Below, in pieces: positions 23,303 through 44,750 of a DNA stretch of 64,000 bases. The notes beneath the pieces were generated by a model that was given only the letters and a program-made list of their open reading frames with translations, did no database searches and had not been told where the DNA came from. Within the stretch, counting starts at the first letter, position 1. Each line of letters begins with the position of its first letter. The position numbers and the translations under genes are program-made. The stretch comes from Desulfonatronospira thiodismutans ASO3-1 (GTDB lineage Bacteria > Desulfobacterota > Desulfovibrionia > Desulfovibrionales > Desulfonatronovibrionaceae): contig NZ_ACJN02000001.1 in the NCBI RefSeq assembly GCF_000174435.1, forward strand, positions 62,001 through 126,000, given 5' to 3'.

Positions 23303-23500
23303 CCTGGCCTGAAATGGGGAAAAACAAGGCTGAATTTCCCATAACAAGCCAGGCATGAAATGGGGAAAAACAAGGCTGAATTTCCCATAACAAGCCAGGC
23401 ATGAAATGGGGAAAAGTCGTCTTTATTGCCCAACTTATACCAGACTTGAAATGGGCAATTGGAGGGCGTAATTGCTCAATTCAGGCCAGGCATGAAATGG
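23303..23500. repeat. 46-bp tandem repeats with hairpin potential
   Basis: Unit starts at 23303, 23349, 23395, 23440 and 23486 (partial). Units 1 and 2 are nearly identical; 3 and 4 keep the leading CCAGGCATGAAATGGG-like half but differ in the rest. Each can still pair an ATGGG/TGGGCAATT arm with a later CCCAT/AATTGCTCA arm. Not CRISPR: the 'spacer' halves are repeat-derived and there are no cas genes. Confidence 0.75.
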
Positions 23501-34891: not shown

Positions 34892-35565
34892 CTAATTCTT
34901 GAACGGCCGGTACAACGGATCTCCCACCAGGACCATCTTCCAGGACCAGGATGGTATGGAATTAAAATAGACTTCTGCCAGACTAAGACGCCCGTCCGTA
35001 AGCAGGGCAAAAAGATCTCCGGAGGGGGAAAGGCCTGCACGTACGGCTCGCCCACCGGCCCCAGAGTGGCAGCTACACCTTCTTCCAGCATCCTCTTGCA
35101 CCAGTACTCTCCCCTTCTCAGGCTCTGGCACTCCTGGCTGGCAATATGATACCCCACAGAACCAGGCTGCCATTCAAAGGCCGGCACATACCTGGCCAGA
35201 CTGTACCAGCCCGCATACAGGGCTGCTTCAGGGCAGTCCCCGGGCTGAAAAAGCGCGCTGGTCTCCTCAACTGTTACCGGCATAATGTCATTGGACTGCA
35301 GATGCAGCGCAGCCTGGTGCAGGGAGTAATCATACAGGCCGTAGCCCCCCTGGGGACGCTCATCAGGCATGGGCCATCTGGCGTCAAAGTATGCCCTGCC
35401 CTGCAGGCCTGCTTCCTCTGTCTGGATCTTGTTGGCCACTACCAGGATCTCCTCGGGCTTGAGAGAAGCCCCGGCCTCTTTCTGCTGCAGAAAGCTTACT
35501 GCCATCACCACAACAATCATCAAAAAAACAAAACCGTATCTGTTGATAAACATAAGCCTTGCCAT
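34892..35565 (-). pseudogene. Broken TIGR03790-like (exosortase-associated) gene
   Basis: The 226-residue frame starts with a signal peptide ('YGFVFLMIVVVMAVSFL...GASLKPEEILVVANK'), then jumps straight to 'GLQGRAYFDARWP', 'GYGLYDYSL', 'FQPGDCPEAALYAGWYSLARYV', 'EWQPGSVGYHIAS' and 'GVAATLGPVGEPYVQAFPPPE'. In family members I recall, a stretch of about 200 residues separates the first two motifs, so an internal deletion is likely. Near 35020-35035 the frame also shifts: the expected ending 'LAEVYFNSIPSW...LVGDPLYRPFKN' is in the next frame and stops at 34892. TIGR03790 proteins occur in genomes with exosortase, consistent with XrtD at 49-50.7 kb. Confidence 0.7.
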
Positions 35566-35812
35566 TGATTACAAATTGCTGACTGTATATTCCCTCAAAG
35601 CCCTGAACATCGTCGTAGCCTGTTTGCACATATAGCGCTTGACGCGAAATATGCAAAAAATGTCCATTAAAATACCTGTATGCTTTTCCCAGTTCAAAAA
35701 CAAGATATCGGTGTTTACCAAACGGATTCCCGAGGATGAAACCGATACTTTCAATTGCAGGCTTTATCTCACGACATGCGTTTTTTAAAACTTCTTTCTA
35801 TGCCCTTTTTTC
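35566..35812. other. Spacer with a REP copy and the left 65-bp flank of IS66
   Basis: No gene. A degenerate RAYT-type REP (TTGCACATATAGCGC...GCGAAATATGCAA) is at 35624-35656. The 65-bp flank repeat is at 35748-35812 and abuts the IS66 end. Confidence 0.7.
35748..35812. repeat. 65-bp exact direct repeat, left flank of IS66
   Basis: Begins CTTTCAATTGCAGG and ends GCCCTTTTTTC, directly touching the IS66 left end (GTAAGCGTCC at 35813). The identical second copy (38296-38360) starts directly after the right end. Confidence 0.9.
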
Positions 35813-35890
35813 GTAAGCGTCCATTTAACCCCATCTTTTTTTCTCCGCCTGATGTGCTAATGGTCTCCCAAATACCAAGGAGGAGCCGTT

Positions 35891-36232
35891 ATGCAAACCA
35901 AGTCACAGAAGTACACGCCTGAGGAGCGGGCCGGATTCTGGTCCGCGCATATCAACAAGTGGAGGCAGGGCAGCCTGACCAAAGCCGAATACTGCCGCAG
36001 GGCAGAACTGTCCAAGCATGCCTTCTATTACTGGTGCAAAAAGCTTGGGCACACCAATTCCAGGAAAACCCAGGAGGAAAATGCCATCGTGCCGGTGCCC
36101 CTGAAGGTTGTCCAGGAGAAAACCCATACGCCTCTGCGCCTGATGGTCAATAGTTACCAAGTGGATATCCCGGGTGATTTCCAGCAGGAAGTACTGGCCA
36201 AGCTTGTCCGTACTCTGGAGGAGATCACGTGA
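35891..36232 (+). CDS. tnpA: IS66 TnpA (accessory, helix-turn-helix)
   Basis: 113 residues with GGAGG ribosome site. 'WRQGSLTKAEYCRRAELSKHAFYYWCKKLG' is the IS66 OrfA helix-turn-helix. It is required for transposition together with TnpB. Ends in ATGA-type overlap with tnpB (GTGATCGCG). Confidence 0.92.
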   Translation: MQTKSQKYTPEERAGFWSAHINKWRQGSLTKAEYCRRAELSKHAFYYWCKKLGHTNSRKTQEENAIVPVPLKVVQEKTHTPLRLMVNSYQVDIPGDFQQEVLAKLVRTLEEIT

Positions 36233-36580
36233 TCGCGGTAAGTCAGGCCAAGGTGTATCTGGTCACCGGACATACCGACATGCGCAAGGCCATAGACGGG
36301 TTGTCCATCATGGTCCAGGCTCAGCTGGAGCATGACCCCTTTTCCGGTCATCTGTTTGTCTTCTGCAACAGGCAGCGAACCATCATCAAGATCCTGTACT
36401 GGGACACAAACGGTTTTTGCCTGTGGCAAAAGCGCCTGGAGAAGCAAAGCTTCAAGTGGCCTGCATCAAAGCAGGAAGTTATGGAGCTTGATGCGAGGCA
36501 GCTTGTCTGGCTTTTAGACGGTCTGGACCCTGTGCAGGTCAGGGGGGCACAAAGAGTTAAAATTTTCCACATTATTTTAG
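36229..36580 (+). pseudogene. tnpB: IS66 TnpB with a frameshift in a G6 tract
   Basis: The frame starts 'AVSQAKVYLVTGHTDMRKAIDGL' and is normal to 'LLDGLDPVQVRG', including 'ILYWDTNGFCLWQKRLEKQSF'. At 36542-36547 six G occur. With five, the protein would end 'RGHKELKFSTLF' and stop at 36580 (116 aa, usual length). As read, it continues in the wrong frame to 36732, into tnpC. It may be a real mutation, a programmed slip, or a base-calling error. Confidence 0.8.
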
Positions 36581-36638
36581 ATTTTTTGAAAAAAAAGCTT
36601 GCAATTCCAAATGTTTGTGTGTATAGGAATACTCAGTT

Positions 36639-38195
36639 ATGGACATCAACAACTTGCCAGATGATAAGGATGCGCTCAAAGATATCGTTGCTGACTACCA
36701 CCAGCAACTTATCTACCTGCAGGAGAAACTGAACTTCCTGCAAAAAGCCATCTATGGGTCCAAATCCGATAAAAAACCCAAATGCGGCTCCAAAGAGACC
36801 TGGCCCATGATGCCTGGTCTTGTTGAGATGGAAACCGAGGTGGAAACGCCCCAGGAAAAAACCATCACCATACCTGAACATTCCCGTAAGAAACGTGGCC
36901 GCAAGCCCATCCCCAAGGATCTTCCCAGAAAGGATATAATCCATGACCTCTCTGGGGAGGAAAAGATATGCCCCTGCGGAGTCGAGCTAAGCCCGATAGG
37001 TCAGGAAGTAAGCGAAAAACTGGATTATATCCCTGCCAGGCTGATTGTTAATCGCTACATCCGTCTCAAATACGCCTGCAAAAACTGCGAGGGAGCCGAA
37101 GATGATCAGGGTGCAGTCAAAATAGCTCCCATGCCGGAACAGCTGATCCCCCAGGGCATAGTGACTCCAGGTCTTATGGCTCATATCATCACGGCCAAGT
37201 TTGTGGACGGCCTACCCTTTTATCGCCAGTGCAAGCAGCTTTTAAGGCTGGGCATTGATATCTCCCGTTCCACCATGGTCTCCTGGGCCATGCATGCGGC
37301 CAGGGTCTGCGAGCCTTTCCTGGATCTGTTCAAAAAGGAGATCATGCTCGGATTCCAGGTGGGCATAGACGAGACCCCGGTACAGGTACTTGATGAACCG
37401 GGCCGGTCCAACACTTCCAAGTCATATATGTGGGTTTTCCTTGGCGGCCATCCTGAAAATCCCACTGTCCTTTATGATTATCATCCCACGCGAAGCGGTC
37501 TGGCCCTGGATTTCCTCCAGGACTATCAAGGTTATATTCAAAGTGACGGCTATGCAGTCTACAACGACCTGGGCGACAAGCCGGGCATATTCCATGTAGG
37601 ATGCCTGGCCCATGTCCGGCGCAAGTTTATGGATGTGGTCAAACTCTCCAAGAAACAAAAGCACAAGGGCGGAACCGCCCAGGAAATCCTGAACCTTATC
37701 GCCAAGCTATATATCCTGGAACAGTCCTTTGAAACCAGAAAGCTAAAGCCCGACCGGATACAGGAAGAACGTCAGGAAAAAAGTATACCCATACTAAACC
37801 AGATAAAAACTCTGCTGGACGAAAGAAGTAAAACCACCCCGGACAAAAGCAAACTGGGCACGGCCATAAATTATGCCCTGAACCAGTGGGACAGAGTGGT
37901 GCGCTATACACTGGATGGCCGGCTGCGGCCTGACAATAATCTGGTGGAAAACGCCATCAGACCCTTCGCCCTGGGACGCAAGAACTGGCTTTTTGCCGGA
38001 CATCCCAATGGAGCCAAGGCAGGCGCTATGTACTTCTCCCTGGTGGAGACAGCCAAAAAGAACGGCCTGGAGCCTTACGCATACTTACGCCACCTGTTTG
38101 AAAACTTGCCCCTGGCCAAGACCGAGCAGGATCTGAAGGCCCTTATGCCTCAGTACATAGATCCGGAAGTCCTGCCTTCCCCCACTGCCTGCTGA
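36639..38195 (+). CDS. tnpC: IS66 transposase TnpC
   Basis: 518 residues. N-terminal leucine-zipper-like helix ('YHQQLIYLQEKLNFLQKAIYG'), zinc-binding 'CPCGVEL...CKNC', then the DDE core: 'GIDETPVQV' (Asp), 'SDGYAVYND' (Asp) and 'LRPDNNLVENAIRPFALGRKNWLF' (Glu), and the IS66 C-terminal tail 'LPYLF'-like 'HLFENLPLAKT'. Full length and intact. Confidence 0.96.
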   Translation: MDINNLPDDKDALKDIVADYHQQLIYLQEKLNFLQKAIYGSKSDKKPKCGSKETWPMMPGLVEMETEVETPQEKTITIPEHSRKKRGRKPIPKDLPRKDIIHDLSGEEKICPCGVELSPIGQEVSEKLDYIPARLIVNRYIRLKYACKNCEGAEDDQGAVKIAPMPEQLIPQGIVTPGLMAHIITAKFVDGLPFYRQCKQLLRLGIDISRSTMVSWAMHAARVCEPFLDLFKKEIMLGFQVGIDETPVQVLDEPGRSNTSKSYMWVFLGGHPENPTVLYDYHPTRSGLALDFLQDYQGYIQSDGYAVYNDLGDKPGIFHVGCLAHVRRKFMDVVKLSKKQKHKGGTAQEILNLIAKLYILEQSFETRKLKPDRIQEERQEKSIPILNQIKTLLDERSKTTPDKSKLGTAINYALNQWDRVVRYTLDGRLRPDNNLVENAIRPFALGRKNWLFAGHPNGAKAGAMYFSLVETAKKNGLEPYAYLRHLFENLPLAKTEQDLKALMPQYIDPEVLPSPTAC

Positions 38196-38295
38196 TCCCA
38201 ACCATCATACCCCTGGCCTGCTGCATATCCAGTGGGCCAGGGAATACTACCAACGATACCCGCCCATGGATAGGTGTACCCGTTTGGACGCTTAC

Positions 38296-38360
38296 CTTTC
38301 AATTGCAGGCTTTATCTCACGACATGCGTTTTTTAAAACTTCTTTCTATGCCCTTTTTTC
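38296..38360. repeat. 65-bp exact direct repeat, right flank of IS66
   Basis: Identical to 35748-35812 and starts at the base after the IS66 right end. 14 nt later a RAYT-type REP half-site begins. Confidence 0.9.
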
Positions 38361-38374
38361 TTCAGTGCAGAGAC

Positions 38375-38474
38375 TTGCACATTTCGCGTCAAGCTCGATA
38401 AGTGCAATAAAGTTATTGCATAAGGCAGCCATTTGTTCTAAGTTCACAAAACGGGCTTGACGCAAAATGTGCAA
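38375..38474. repeat. Inverted REP pair upstream of the REP transposase
   Basis: TTGCACATTTCGCGTCAAGC (38375-38394) pairs with GCTTGACGCAAAATGTGCAA (38455-38474) across a 60-nt loop, ending 12 nt before the transposase ATG. Same REP motif as those after the gene. Confidence 0.8.
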
Positions 38475-38486
38475 AAGGGGCAAGGC

Positions 38487-39410
38487 ATGGATCATTTCGA
38501 GCCGGGCATAACAGGAAATGTACAGCGGATATTCAGAGCAAGATACAAGCTTGATGAACCTGGGTTGACATCACATATAACCCAGCGTGCGGCCGGCAAA
38601 GACCCTCTGTTTCTGGATGATAGAGATTACCTGACCATGCTTGGCCTGCTCAAGGAAAGCTCTGAAAAATTCAATATCAGCTATTATGCCCTGTGTTTAA
38701 TGCAAAACCACCTGCACATCCTGATCAAGCCCTATGAAAAGAATCTGGTCCAGGCCATGCGCTCAATTTTTTCAAGATATGCCGCTAAATTCAATCACCG
38801 GTATGAACGCCGCGGCCATCTTTTTGGAGGACCCTACCGCCAGTCTGTTTGTCTGGACAACTCCTACCTGCTTTCAGCCTCCTTATATATCCACCTGAAC
38901 CCTGTGCGCGCCGGCCTTACAGACAACCCAAACCAGTACAGGTGGTCCTCAGGTTCTCTTTACTGCCTGGAAACCCCCAGAGAATCATTTGTGGATCCAA
39001 AGCCGGTACTGCAGCTTGTACATGATGATCAAAACGCAGCCCGCAGGGAATACTATAAGATACTGCACAAAGCCCAGGGAGCAGAACCGGATAACGCCCT
39101 TGAACATAAAGGGGCTATTGAAAAATTCTGTGTGCGCCTGGCTGAAATCTTCCCCGCCCTGTTCAAAAGGCTGAACAAAAAAAGCAGCGCCTATGAGAAC
39201 ATTCCCCCTTCCATGCTTGAACTGACCGAACTCGAGAGCAGACTGCAAAATATGACTGACTCAAGATCCCGGTCAACTGAAAACAGGATGGCCCGGAAAT
39301 ACATAATTGAGCAACTGCTGGCCAGAGGATTCAAAAAAACTGAAATCGCAGAGCGTATGGGCATCTCGAGAAGGTCCGTATATTATTTACTTAACTCTTC
39401 GACAAAATAA
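38487..39410 (+). CDS. REP-associated tyrosine transposase (RAYT, TnpA-REP)
   Basis: 307 residues from ATG 38487 (AGGGGC ribosome site; the earlier start lies inside the REP). Y1/HUH motif 'LMQNHLHILIKP' with the two histidines, followed by 'SIFSRYAAKFNHRYERRGHLFGGPYRQ', which carries the catalytic tyrosine region, then 'SYLLSASLYIHLNPVRAGL'. The C-terminus has an extra helix-turn-helix ('GFKKTEIAERMGISRRSVYYLL'). RAYTs are single-copy domesticated HUH endonucleases thought to bind, cut and spread REP sequences. It is flanked on both sides by matching REPs. Confidence 0.93.
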   Translation: MDHFEPGITGNVQRIFRARYKLDEPGLTSHITQRAAGKDPLFLDDRDYLTMLGLLKESSEKFNISYYALCLMQNHLHILIKPYEKNLVQAMRSIFSRYAAKFNHRYERRGHLFGGPYRQSVCLDNSYLLSASLYIHLNPVRAGLTDNPNQYRWSSGSLYCLETPRESFVDPKPVLQLVHDDQNAARREYYKILHKAQGAEPDNALEHKGAIEKFCVRLAEIFPALFKRLNKKSSAYENIPPSMLELTELESRLQNMTDSRSRSTENRMARKYIIEQLLARGFKKTEIAERMGISRRSVYYLLNSSTK

Positions 39411-39425
39411 TAGCCGGTCGCATTC

Positions 39426-39456
39426 TGCACATTTCGCGTCAAACGCGAAATGTGCA
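39426..39456. repeat. Perfect REP hairpin
   Basis: TGCACATTTCGCG-TCAAA-CGCGAAATGTGCA, 15 nt after the RAYT stop codon. Confidence 0.85.
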
Positions 39457-39469
39457 AAATATGGCGTAA

Positions 39470-39502
39470 TTGCACACTATGCGTTTGACGCGAAATGTGC
39501 AA
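39470..39502. repeat. REP hairpin, second copy
   Basis: TTGCACACTATGCG-TTTGA-CGCGAAATGTGCAA, opposite loop orientation to the previous one. Further copies: 39721-39752, 44542-44571 and 44718-44750. Confidence 0.8.
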
Positions 39503-39720
39503 TTAGCTGAGGCGGGAGCAGGTTGTGGGCGGCTTGCTCGAATGGCGGCACGACAGCTAAGGCAGGAAGGATGGACCTTCTTTTTAAAGGGGAAAAGACA
39601 TCTTCAAGGCTGAAAAAAGCGGCTATACTGAATGATTTCCGAACAAAATCAACACAATGATTCAGGCCGACTCCACTTCGTATACAATACTCCATTATGA
39701 AGGATCATTGCTGGACTTAA

Positions 39721-39752
39721 TTGCACACTTTGCGTTTGACGCGAAGTGTGCA
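39721..39752. repeat. REP hairpin, third copy
   Basis: TTGCACACTTTGCG-TTTGA-CGCGAAGTGTGCA. Confidence 0.8.
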
Positions 39753-39815
39753 GACAATATTTTTGCAAATATGTAAATGCCAAAAGCAAAACCATGTCAA
39801 CAACATTTTGTTGAA

Positions 39816-40241: not shown

Positions 40242-40514
40242 TCACTCCCTGGAGCTGAGTTCCTTTTGAGCAATGCATGATGTGGTTAAATGGGCTTTGG
40301 GTGTGGCGAGTACCCGGGCGATTCTCTGGCTGGCGCGGCCATCCCAGAGCTCGGGTACTGTGGAGGGCCTTAGATCACCTGCCAGGTTGCGGTCTACAGA
40401 TCTGCGCAAAAGATCCATGTCCCGGCCTATGAGCATATTGCTGCCGGACTCCAGGGTCACCGGCCTCTCGGTATTCTCCCGCAGGGTCAGGCAGGGAATC
40501 TGCAGGCCCGGCAC
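40242..40514 (-). pseudogene. wecB: UDP-N-acetylglucosamine 2-epimerase, C-terminal remnant
   Basis: About 90 residues: 'GLQIPCLTLRENTERPVTLESGSNMLIGRDMDLL' and 'RPSTVPELWDGRASQRIARVL' are the conserved C-terminus of non-hydrolysing UDP-GlcNAc 2-epimerases. The N-terminal 270 or so residues are missing upstream. A relic of surface-polysaccharide genes, as at 43.5-45 kb. Confidence 0.85.
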
Positions 40515-43559: not shown

Positions 43560-44087
43560 GCCGGGAAAAAACCTGGGTGCGGCCATGGAATTAATGGCAT
43601 GGAGCACAAAAACAGTCAGGGTGGCCAGCTTGACTGCCACGGCATAATAGCCCACCTCGGCCTCAGGCCGGAACATGCCCAGGATGATCACCCCGGTCTG
43701 ACCGATGATAAAGGTCATAGTAGCGGTCATGAGCATGGGCAGGGAGATGGCCAGGATCTCCTTCATGGGCATGGGGTGCAGGGCATCATCCGGTGCTGAT
43801 TTCTTTTTGAACACCCTGTCCATGTTCCAGGCCCCGACCAGGGCGGTCATGGCGAAAGAGGCGAACATGGCTAAAATCGGGTTGGACTGGTGAAAAAAGA
43901 AGATAGTTATGGGGATAAGGATGATGAGCTTGGAAAGACGGGGCAAAAGCTGCATGAACGCATAGACCCGGATCAAGCGCACCCCGCGCACAGCCTGAGT
44001 ATTGAGAATCATAAGAGATTTGAAAACAATAAATACCGCTGCCAGGGCAAAGTAATACTGCAGATGGGGTTTGGAAAAAACTGTTTG
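43560..44087 (-). pseudogene. Polysaccharide flippase (Wzx/MATE-type), internal fragment
   Basis: The coding character runs from about 44087 to 43570: 'LQYYFALAAVFIVFKSLMILNTQAVRGVRLIRVYAFMQLLPRLSKLIILIP', 'PMPMKEILAISLPMLMTATMTFIIGQTGVIILGMFRPEAEVGYYAVAVKLATLTVFVLHAINSMAAPRF', with several membrane helices. The upstream end is cut by MITE-like copy C (44087); the downstream end stops at 'AAPRF'. The piece encoding the flippase C-terminus lies at 44808-44960, upstream on the same strand, so the order is permuted. Confidence 0.8.
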
Positions 44088-44231
44088 TAACCATTCAGGG
44101 GGGCAGATACCGGCCTGGGGACAATCCCCGCGACACCTTTTATGCACAAATAAAAAATGACAAACGCGAAGTTGTTTGAACCTTCACAGATAGTACTCAG
44201 CGAAGGACAGTCCCCAGGCCTTGTGCATAAC
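44087..44231. repeat. MITE-like element copy C (right end missing)
   Basis: GTAACCATTCAGGGGGGCAG, GGGGACAATCCCC, then AAGGACAGTCCCCAGGCCTTGTGCATAA; the terminal CCCCTGAATGGTTAC is absent. It truncates the flippase fragment. Confidence 0.8.
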
Positions 44232-44541
44232 TAAACTGGCAACATAATGTCCCCTTGCGCCCTGACTCCTGGGAACTGCCTCAAGGGCGGGGTATGCGGG
44301 GTACGTTAAAAAAATACTAAATGCAGGCGGGGTAAGGCGGGATATCGCGGGATACTGGCAACATAACTTCACCCAGTTGAACAGACCGAAGGTCTACGGC
44401 ACAGCCGTGTTCAACCGGGTAAACTGGCAACATAATGTCCCCTGGCTCTACTGCGGCTTCCTTCAATGCTCGGAATGAGTAACGAAGGGAGTGGCCGGCA
44501 AAACCTCTCCCGCAAAAAGTGTGTAAAATACGCCGTAAGTT
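44232..44541. other. Rearranged filler DNA
   Basis: Two copies of AACTGGCAACATAATGTCCCC (44233-44253 and 44423-44443) and a third partial one (44354-44367) are spaced through this stretch; GGCGGGGTA repeats occur too. No gene. Confidence 0.5.
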
Positions 44542-44571
44542 ACACACTTTGCGTCAAACGCGAAATGTGCA
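44542..44571. repeat. REP hairpin, copy left of the glycosyltransferase remnant
   Basis: ACACACTTTGCG-TCAAA-CGCGAAATGTGCA, the RAYT-associated motif. Confidence 0.8.
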
Positions 44572-44572
44572 G

Positions 44573-44717: not shown

Positions 44718-44750
44718 TTGCACACTTTGCGTCAAACGCGAAATGTGCAA
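44718..44750. repeat. REP hairpin, copy right of the glycosyltransferase remnant
   Basis: TTGCACACTTTGCG-TCAAA-CGCGAAATGTGCAA. Confidence 0.85.

Follow-up and report, generated by a model that had tools for sequence, protein, structure and literature searches.

A tyrosine transposase gene amid 33-nt palindromes

The window analysed here, a stretch of 64,000 nt from Desulfonatronospira thiodismutans ASO3-1 (NZ_ACJN02000001.1, positions 62,001 to 126,000), includes a forward-strand gene (38487..39410, ATG start) encoding a RAYT/TnpAREP-like Y1 HUH protein of 307 aa. As originally predicted, this is an HUH transposase with a C-terminal helix-turn-helix (HTH): a PF01797 domain (IS200-like Y1) occupies residues 32-136 and an HTH_23 domain residues 271-301. 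The HUH motif is H75-L76-H77, Y134 is the likely catalytic tyrosine and an NPVRAG motif is found at positions 138-143. H75, H77 and Y134 are conserved in 28/28 rows of an alignment (A3) composed of the window protein, its paralog C (see below) and 26 family-like loci. PF01797 and, at E <= 0.001, NCBIfam REP_Tyr_transpos are also found in 28/28 members and HTH_23 in 26/28; the NCBIfam REP-associated tyrosine transposase model matches the window protein with E 1.1e-16 and a score of 61.1, below the cutoff of 80. Compared with its homologue in a Desulfonatronovibrio MAG (L105, 88% protein identity), the gene shows dN 0.043 and dS 0.313 over 232 codons (dN/dS about 0.14) and is under purifying selection.

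In an AlphaFold2 model (pLDDT 81.6) the HTH tail extends approximately over residues 264-303, with helices at 264-279, 284-291 and 295-303. The closest PDB structure to this model (VIA structure list, a second look at the Foldseek matches) is 4er8, E. coli TnpAREP with a REP hairpin (Z 15.7, 160 residues, 3.2 Å), followed by IS608 (Z 9.3); identity to TnpAREP in the structure alignments is 11-12%. Residues 245-305 resemble the HTH of ParB (6t1f; Z 7.8, 57 residues, 2.0 Å), a likeness of the modelled tail that may merely reflect a common fold or arrangement. A PDB sequence search with the window protein alone gave no significant match, and one with the family profile matched ISDra2-type transposases weakly (E about 0.006).

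The gene is surrounded by imperfect palindromes of 33 nt, with arms of 14 and a loop of 5, of the typical form TTGCACATTTCGCG-TCAAA-CGCGAAATGTGCAA; eight occur in the window. Two lie upstream, at 38375..38407 (+), 79 nt 5' of the start codon, and in inverted orientation at 38442..38474 (-), a half decayed copy 12 nt 5' of the start codon. Downstream, a nearly perfect copy at 39425..39457 (+), 14 nt 3' of the stop codon, forms a second inverted pair, across a 12-nt spacer, with one whose middle is mismatched (39470..39502, -), and a further copy lies at 39721..39753 (-). Two outlying elements are found at 44540..44572 (+) and 44718..44750 (+), and the eighth, at 35624..35656 (-), is separated from the remaining group by an IS66-type element. 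That palindromes flank the transposase, and that the same motif recurs at 35624 and at 44542/44718, was thus correctly anticipated; the half-sites then noted belong to these eight elements. The pairing of 38375-38394 with 38455-38474 as two arms of one palindrome was wrong: the former is the left part of 38375-38407 and the latter the intact right half of the decayed 38442-38474. With up to 3 mismatches, the 14-mer TTGCACATTTCGCG has 17 occurrences in the window where 5.46 would be expected, and 0/100 shuffles reached that number; 15 of the 17 matches fall on the eight palindromes and the remaining two lie at 23445 and 24065. When folded as ssDNA and compared with shuffled sequences, the elements at 39425, 39470 and 39721 are strong (z -6.9, -4.5 and -7.0) and that at 44718 is moderate (z -3.0), while those at 44540 (z -1.7), 35624 (z -1.3), 38375 (z -0.4) and 38442 (z +0.2) are weak or no better than shuffles.

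The IS66-type element (35813..38295, +) interrupts the palindrome group without being part of it, and a second copy, 99.5% identical, is located elsewhere on the same contig. It is bordered by 70-bp direct repeats (35748-35817 and 38296-38365, 97% identical) with no short target duplication; that usual for IS66 is about 8 bp. Without this element and one of the 70-bp repeats, the 35624 palindrome would lie about 170 nt from that at 38375. Beside the outlying palindromes are interspersed repeats of roughly 140-390 bp (44087-44443 in the window; 757022-757367 and 759680-760070 on contig C1), which have many copies in this and related genomes. A viral source for the palindrome was also considered and rejected, an 18-nt stretch (one pattern) giving 0 exact matches in viral contigs.

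Paralogs and palindromes in the Desulfonatronospira genome

The 4.1-Mb genome contains 34 Y1-like matches, among which the window protein (A) has just two close paralogs, B (71%) and C (68%); the others are partial alignments with at most 37% identity. No recent gene copies were found in this genome. A premature stop suspected in B was rejected: its single TAG is the normal last codon, so that B is intact. B is flanked by elements of the type TTGCACGAAACGCG-TCCGG-CGCGAAACGTGCAA and C by elements of the type CTTTACACTTCGCG-CTTGA-CGCGATGTGTAAAG. With those around A, these represent three paralogs with three subtypes, in which both stem and loop letters have changed.

The genome-wide enrichment expected of REP sequences was found. 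With up to 1 mismatch the 14-mer occurs 18 times, against 1 for its reversed control, and the core GCGTCAARCGC 50 times against 5 for the control. A covariance model (R1) gave at least 117 matches with both strands counted, which collapse to at least 62 places in 24 clusters and include all subtypes (150 of 985 candidates scored); since R1 was built from 34 elements of this same genome, the figure is a count and not a test. Against 0.13 expected, 14 of these places are no more than 1 kb away from the three genes; 31 lie within 15 kb (1.4 expected) and 31 farther away; 12 form one array near C, and many of the C-type elements belong to a local array. In the window and the other stretches fetched, 49 elements have an exact core; ORFs of at least 150 aa contain none of them, compared with 34% of random positions.

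Several arrangements of these elements may be recorded. At L084:1087-3355 (C1:1190586-1192854) there are six direct pairs of C-type elements whose members are 38 nt apart; the pairs sit within longer tandem repeats and several are framed by AAAGAGAC...GTCTCTTT. At C2:833326 and C3:170462 (L088, L089) the palindromes are chimeric, combining an A-type arm with a C-type arm as though recombination had taken place at the loop. At C4:331558-338939 (L091) two identical palindromes lie 281 nt apart and the pair is repeated about 7 kb further on, which points to segmental duplication.

As a control, 27 other Y1 loci of the genome were examined under a looser rule, several of their genes being broken: none has matching palindromes on both sides, and one (L036) has two weak, unrelated palindromes. 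The genome has 20 copies (L022-L034, L037-L039 and L041-L044) of a Y1 family of 304-311 aa with a different C-terminus, some of them near identical. A few near-identical copies of this family, which is without such an HTH, carry 33-nt TTACCC/TTCCCC palindromes 56 and 102 nt downstream, and there are R2 matches (see below) there too.

Flanking palindromes in relatives

A scan of one genome per species, covering 84,980 species, revealed 72 loci, half of which (36; L105-L138, L163 and L164) are family-like, with 43-88% identity. Going by record titles, their hosts are mostly Desulfo-, deltaproteobacterial and related MAGs, together with Bacterium BMS3Bbin05, NPL-UPA2, Omnitrophota, one Thermoplasmata and one Syntrophomonadaceae. 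Flanks were scanned at 34 loci, namely 31 of the 36 together with the window gene, B and C, and both flanks were present in 29; L125, L137, L138, L163 and L164, which are truncated or broken, were excluded from the counts. Under a strict palindrome rule, the 200 nt upstream contain 29 elements in 6,292 bases (4.61/kb) and the downstream flanks 15 in 6,420 (2.34/kb), against 28 in 110,428 (0.25/kb) in far flanks and 67 in 634,350 (0.106/kb) in shuffled flanks. By locus, 24/31 have an element upstream, 14/32 downstream and 11/29 on both sides. A relaxed rule, written after the strict scans had been examined and whose counts therefore lean upward, gave 66 elements (4.16/kb versus 0.30/kb far away), with at least one palindrome in 28/29 loci and palindromes on both sides in 21/29; a few of these matches have unrelated sequence, for example upstream of L106 and at -194 of L120. 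Palindromes thus flank the window gene and nearly all of the close relatives scanned. L128 has no palindrome in any scan, L137, whose gene is broken, has no matching one, and those of L134 are alike one another but unlike the family letters.

The commonest form in the relatives resembles TTACCCATTTC.GC-TCAAG-GC...TTTGGGTAA, and the length of the element is fixed. In the 31 loci other than the window, B and C, and with no length imposed, TTAC...GTAA (a motif picked after seeing the elements) is spaced by exactly 33 nt 48 times in 23/31 loci, and each alternative spacing in the 15-70 nt range has 3 occurrences or fewer; in sequence far from the gene, 33 nt is again the most frequent spacing, with 25 occurrences against no more than 5 for others.

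This constancy bears on the possibility that the palindromes are not nuclease substrates but double-stranded operators of the HTH, acting in autoregulation, or gene terminators. The fixed length, the conserved outer letters and the ParB-like tail (Z 7.8, 57 residues) would suit such a role, as would the placement of one palindrome 12 nt upstream of the start codon and of others just past the stop. We nevertheless hold it unlikely: 31 of the at least 62 palindromes are over 15 kb distant from all three genes, operators would not be expected in tandem arrays or in multiple downstream copies, and the HUH and tyrosine residues are retained in 28/28 members.

A conserved GTAG/GGAG-like tetranucleotide next to the palindromes, which the original prediction proposed to look for, did not appear: GT[AG]G is present within 7 nt in 1 of the 66 elements, and C[TC]AC and CnGA feet in 2 and 1. 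Since the GT[AG]G foot was looked for and is lacking, these elements are not canonical REPs. In E. coli, GTAG is contacted by W94, Q95, E100, H101 and R104, according to the text of PMC6006769. E. coli RayT could be aligned by profile over the HUH part, and only unreliably over the GTAG-contact stretch; in a hand alignment anchored on NPV, the facing positions of the window protein are F, G, Q, S and L. These contact residues thus appear to be replaced, which fits the missing foot.

Elements upstream and downstream of the same gene differ by a mean of 4.6 nt, as opposed to 13.3 between loci (21 loci; 0/10,000 shuffles). Protein distance is correlated with palindrome distance (r = 0.70; 26 loci, i.e. 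26 of the 28 A3 rows, two having no palindrome under the relaxed rule; 0/5,000 shuffles, kinship ignored), and r is 0.62 among protein pairs more than 40% apart. Close homologues of A, B and C retain the respective subtypes: L105 carries A-type elements 80 and about 13 nt before the start, the latter imperfect, against 79 and 12 in the window; the TCCGG loop of the B type is found in L107, which is 91% identical to B in DNA, and L094 (95% to C) has C-type elements. Each paralog therefore has its own palindrome subtype, and palindrome and protein change together; judged from these sequence distances, the palindromes appear to have evolved together with the enzyme across many bacteria.

The surroundings of A are partly retained as well. 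The gene upstream of the window copy (34893-35410) is also upstream in L105, and the stretch 40275-40506, downstream in the window, matches further upstream there, so that gene order is only partly kept. This has some bearing on whether the gene and one palindrome per side form a mobile unit of the IS200/IS605 type, with the palindromes as its ends. IS608 cleaves at TTAC and TCAA. These letters occur at the element end and in many loops, the HUH/Y1 fold is common to both, palindromes are found on both sides of the gene in 21/29 loci (relaxed rule) and gene order near the L105 copy is partly unlike that in the window. Such an insertion sequence is nonetheless improbable, for copy A adjoins the same upstream gene in L105, the genome has no near-identical copies (the nearest being the 71% and 68% paralogs), a side often carries more than one palindrome and many palindromes have no gene, and the structural match to TnpAREP exceeds that to IS608 (Z 15.7 versus 9.3). 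No signs of recent movement of the palindromes were seen in the relatives compared: they are kept in place in G002 and G004, of the same genus, and an empty-site search at two outlying regions gave a retained palindrome, a contig end or no alignment, with no clean absence.

The joint occurrence of gene and palindromes was followed across genomes with R1 and with a second model, R2, derived from the palindromes of relatives; both were partly built from loci which they then find. R2 was matched in 20/20 genomes of family-like loci, a result due in part to how it was built. Across a sample of 99 genomes of the phylum, and among the matches listed, it was found in 6/6 with the gene, four of which had contributed palindromes to R2, and in 4/93 without it at a threshold of E 1e-40. 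All four exceptions (G026, G064, G067 and G103) hold more distant relatives of the gene, a search for these having covered the four exceptions. Two genomes are of particular use. G037, outside the R2 build, has at least 72 R2 matches with both strands counted; TTACCCATTTCAGCTCAAAGCACTTTTGGGTAA lies upstream of its gene and a nearly identical element downstream, and there are many further matches elsewhere in the genome. G432, of the same order and used in neither build, has at least 23 R1 matches and the gene (E 5.5e-139). Palindromes flank this gene on both sides, their arms falling between the TTACCC and TTGCAC types, and others occur elsewhere in that genome. G001 and G003, of the same genus as Desulfonatronospira (drafts 94% and 82% complete), show at least 4 and at least 6 R1 matches and no detected gene, and G006 shows at least 5 with only a 52-residue fragment of the gene; among the 11 relatives without R1 matches, the gene test covered all but G433-G437.

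The palindromes of G001 and G003, together with similar ones downstream of some non-HTH Y1 genes, are what might be expected if the palindromes were independent repeats, spread by other means and close to the gene by chance or preference. We give this very little weight, as palindromes and proteins diverge together (r 0.70, and 0.62 among proteins more than 40% apart) and, in the Desulfonatronospira genome, the subtype tracks the gene lineage.

Beyond the family, 35 distant relatives (about 28-38%) have a 33-nt palindrome of other sequence upstream in 11, downstream in 6 and on both sides in 4. As several distant relatives have HTH-like tails by eye, these sequences suggest that palindromes may be wider among HTH-tailed RAYTs. 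Clostridial RAYTs with tails of this kind, likewise judged by eye (L140, L141, L145, L149, L154 and L155), have other palindromes upstream, of the form AGTATAGCA...TGCTATACT or AATATAGCA...TGCTATATT, and another (L168) has CAGGCCCAAATTGCA...TGGGCCTG on both sides.

Relation to known systems and proposed mode of action

The window family shares many features with TnpAREP and REPtrons: the HUH-Y1 fold, with 4er8 as top match; the TnpAREP motif NP(L/V)(R/K)xG (given in the text of PMC2817692), here NPVRAG; extragenic flanking palindromes, partly in inverted pairs and recurring elsewhere in the genome; imperfect stems whose middle is mismatched in many copies; and the lack of near-identical gene copies. 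It differs in having a C-terminal HTH and no GT[AG]G foot, and in palindromes of one fixed 33-nt length across distant hosts. Copy number also differs: at least 62 places, half of them local, compared with the hundreds of copies of well-known REPs, which the text of PMC2817692 puts at usually more than 100 per genome. The original prediction of a RAYT with its own REP hairpins therefore stands as regards a RAYT with its own palindromes, also seen in relatives elsewhere, but not as regards the GTAG/GGAG-like foot, and copy number is low for REPs.

The E. coli and Stenotrophomonas TnpAREP belong to subclasses 2.2 and 2.5 and to groups 2 and 3. Of the published classes, the window protein most resembles subclass 2.1, to which it is likened by description: both are long Y1 proteins with a C-terminal HTH_23/HTH_28-like domain. 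The proteins with such tails form subclass 2.1 in PMC6006769, where the passages on this subclass describe automatic and manual searches without REP-like sequences nearby; in contrast, the window family has palindromes. The account of subclass 2.1 in PMC6006769 also places there 20 of the 26 TIRYT examples of PMC3733652, many of which have GGGGWSAS terminal inverted repeats according to the TIRYT section of the latter. At the window family this motif was found in 4/68 flanks (34 loci), against about 3.9 by chance, and was rejected as a terminal repeat. Some TIRs are described there as self-complementary, so that a partial overlap with the palindromes of the window family is possible.

Atypical palindromes without a GT[AG]G foot, like those of the window family, are described for subclass 2.6 and class 3 TnpAY1 in parts of PMC6006769, subclass 2.6 being compared here through its published description; class 3 differs in its CnGA foot, present in 1/66 elements of the window family. 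IS200/IS605 members (IS608, ISDra2) share the HUH-Y1 fold and hairpins on both sides of the gene, but the window family has no near-identical copies in its own genome, many solo palindromes, an extra helical region and the HTH. CGTC, the tag of repeats described in sections of PMC3733652, occurs in the element GCGTCAARCGC of the Desulfonatronospira genome. The tag of those repeats is an unpaired end, their stems are of 8-9 bp and they have no linked transposase, whereas the CGTC in GCGTCAARCGC spans the stem top and loop. A literature search gave no paper on RAYTs of Desulfobacterota among the matches listed, and the word start 'Desulf' is absent from the main texts of PMC6006769, PMC3733652 and PMC2817692.

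Taken together, these comparisons lead us to favour, with a probability of about 0.75, a REPtron-like unit, that is, a stably inherited RAYT, present as one copy of each of three diverged paralogs, amid co-evolved 33-nt palindromes. The window RAYT is very probably maintained and apparently non-mobile, with cognate palindromes. Points against this reading are the missing GT[AG]G foot, the 11-12% identity to TnpAREP, the low copy number, the lack of signs of recent movement, the palindromes of G001 and G003 and those beside some non-HTH Y1 genes, L128 and L137 without matching ones, the weak folding of several window elements and the partly altered gene order in L105. By analogy with E. coli TnpAREP (PMC8266576) and IS608, the window protein would bind the palindrome in the form of a folded ssDNA hairpin, such as might arise on the lagging-strand template, and cleave beside it using Y134 with the H75/H77 metal site; joining of the ends would copy or move palindromes at a low rate and mostly nearby. 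The HTH tail would bind double-stranded DNA, plausibly the fixed-length palindromes, and the position of one element only 12 nt upstream of the start codon would be compatible with autoregulation.

Additional recognition of the duplex form, perhaps by the HTH, is hypothesized from the constant length of the element and its conserved outer letters. More specifically, and as a tentative idea which we consider possible but doubtful, one palindrome would be read twice: the ParB-like HTH tail would grip the duplex half-sites TTACCC/GGGTAA at exactly 33 bp, while the HUH core would cut the extruded ssDNA hairpin. If so, duplex binding would account for the invariant length and outer letters in distant bacteria alongside a variable middle, it would take the place of the GT[AG]G guide that other REPs have, and the protein could silence its own gene and act mainly nearby.

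The REPtron-like unit proposed here would bring into the RAYT-palindrome partnership the HTH-tailed proteins, whose nearest published class has been reported to lack REP-like sequences. The family is well suited to studying how palindromes are recognised by RAYTs when there is no GTAG guide; its fixed 33-nt length is a sharp constraint which calls for explanation, and the three paralogs with three subtypes in a single genome make direct swap tests possible. The family also bears on why domesticated transposases are kept by bacteria.
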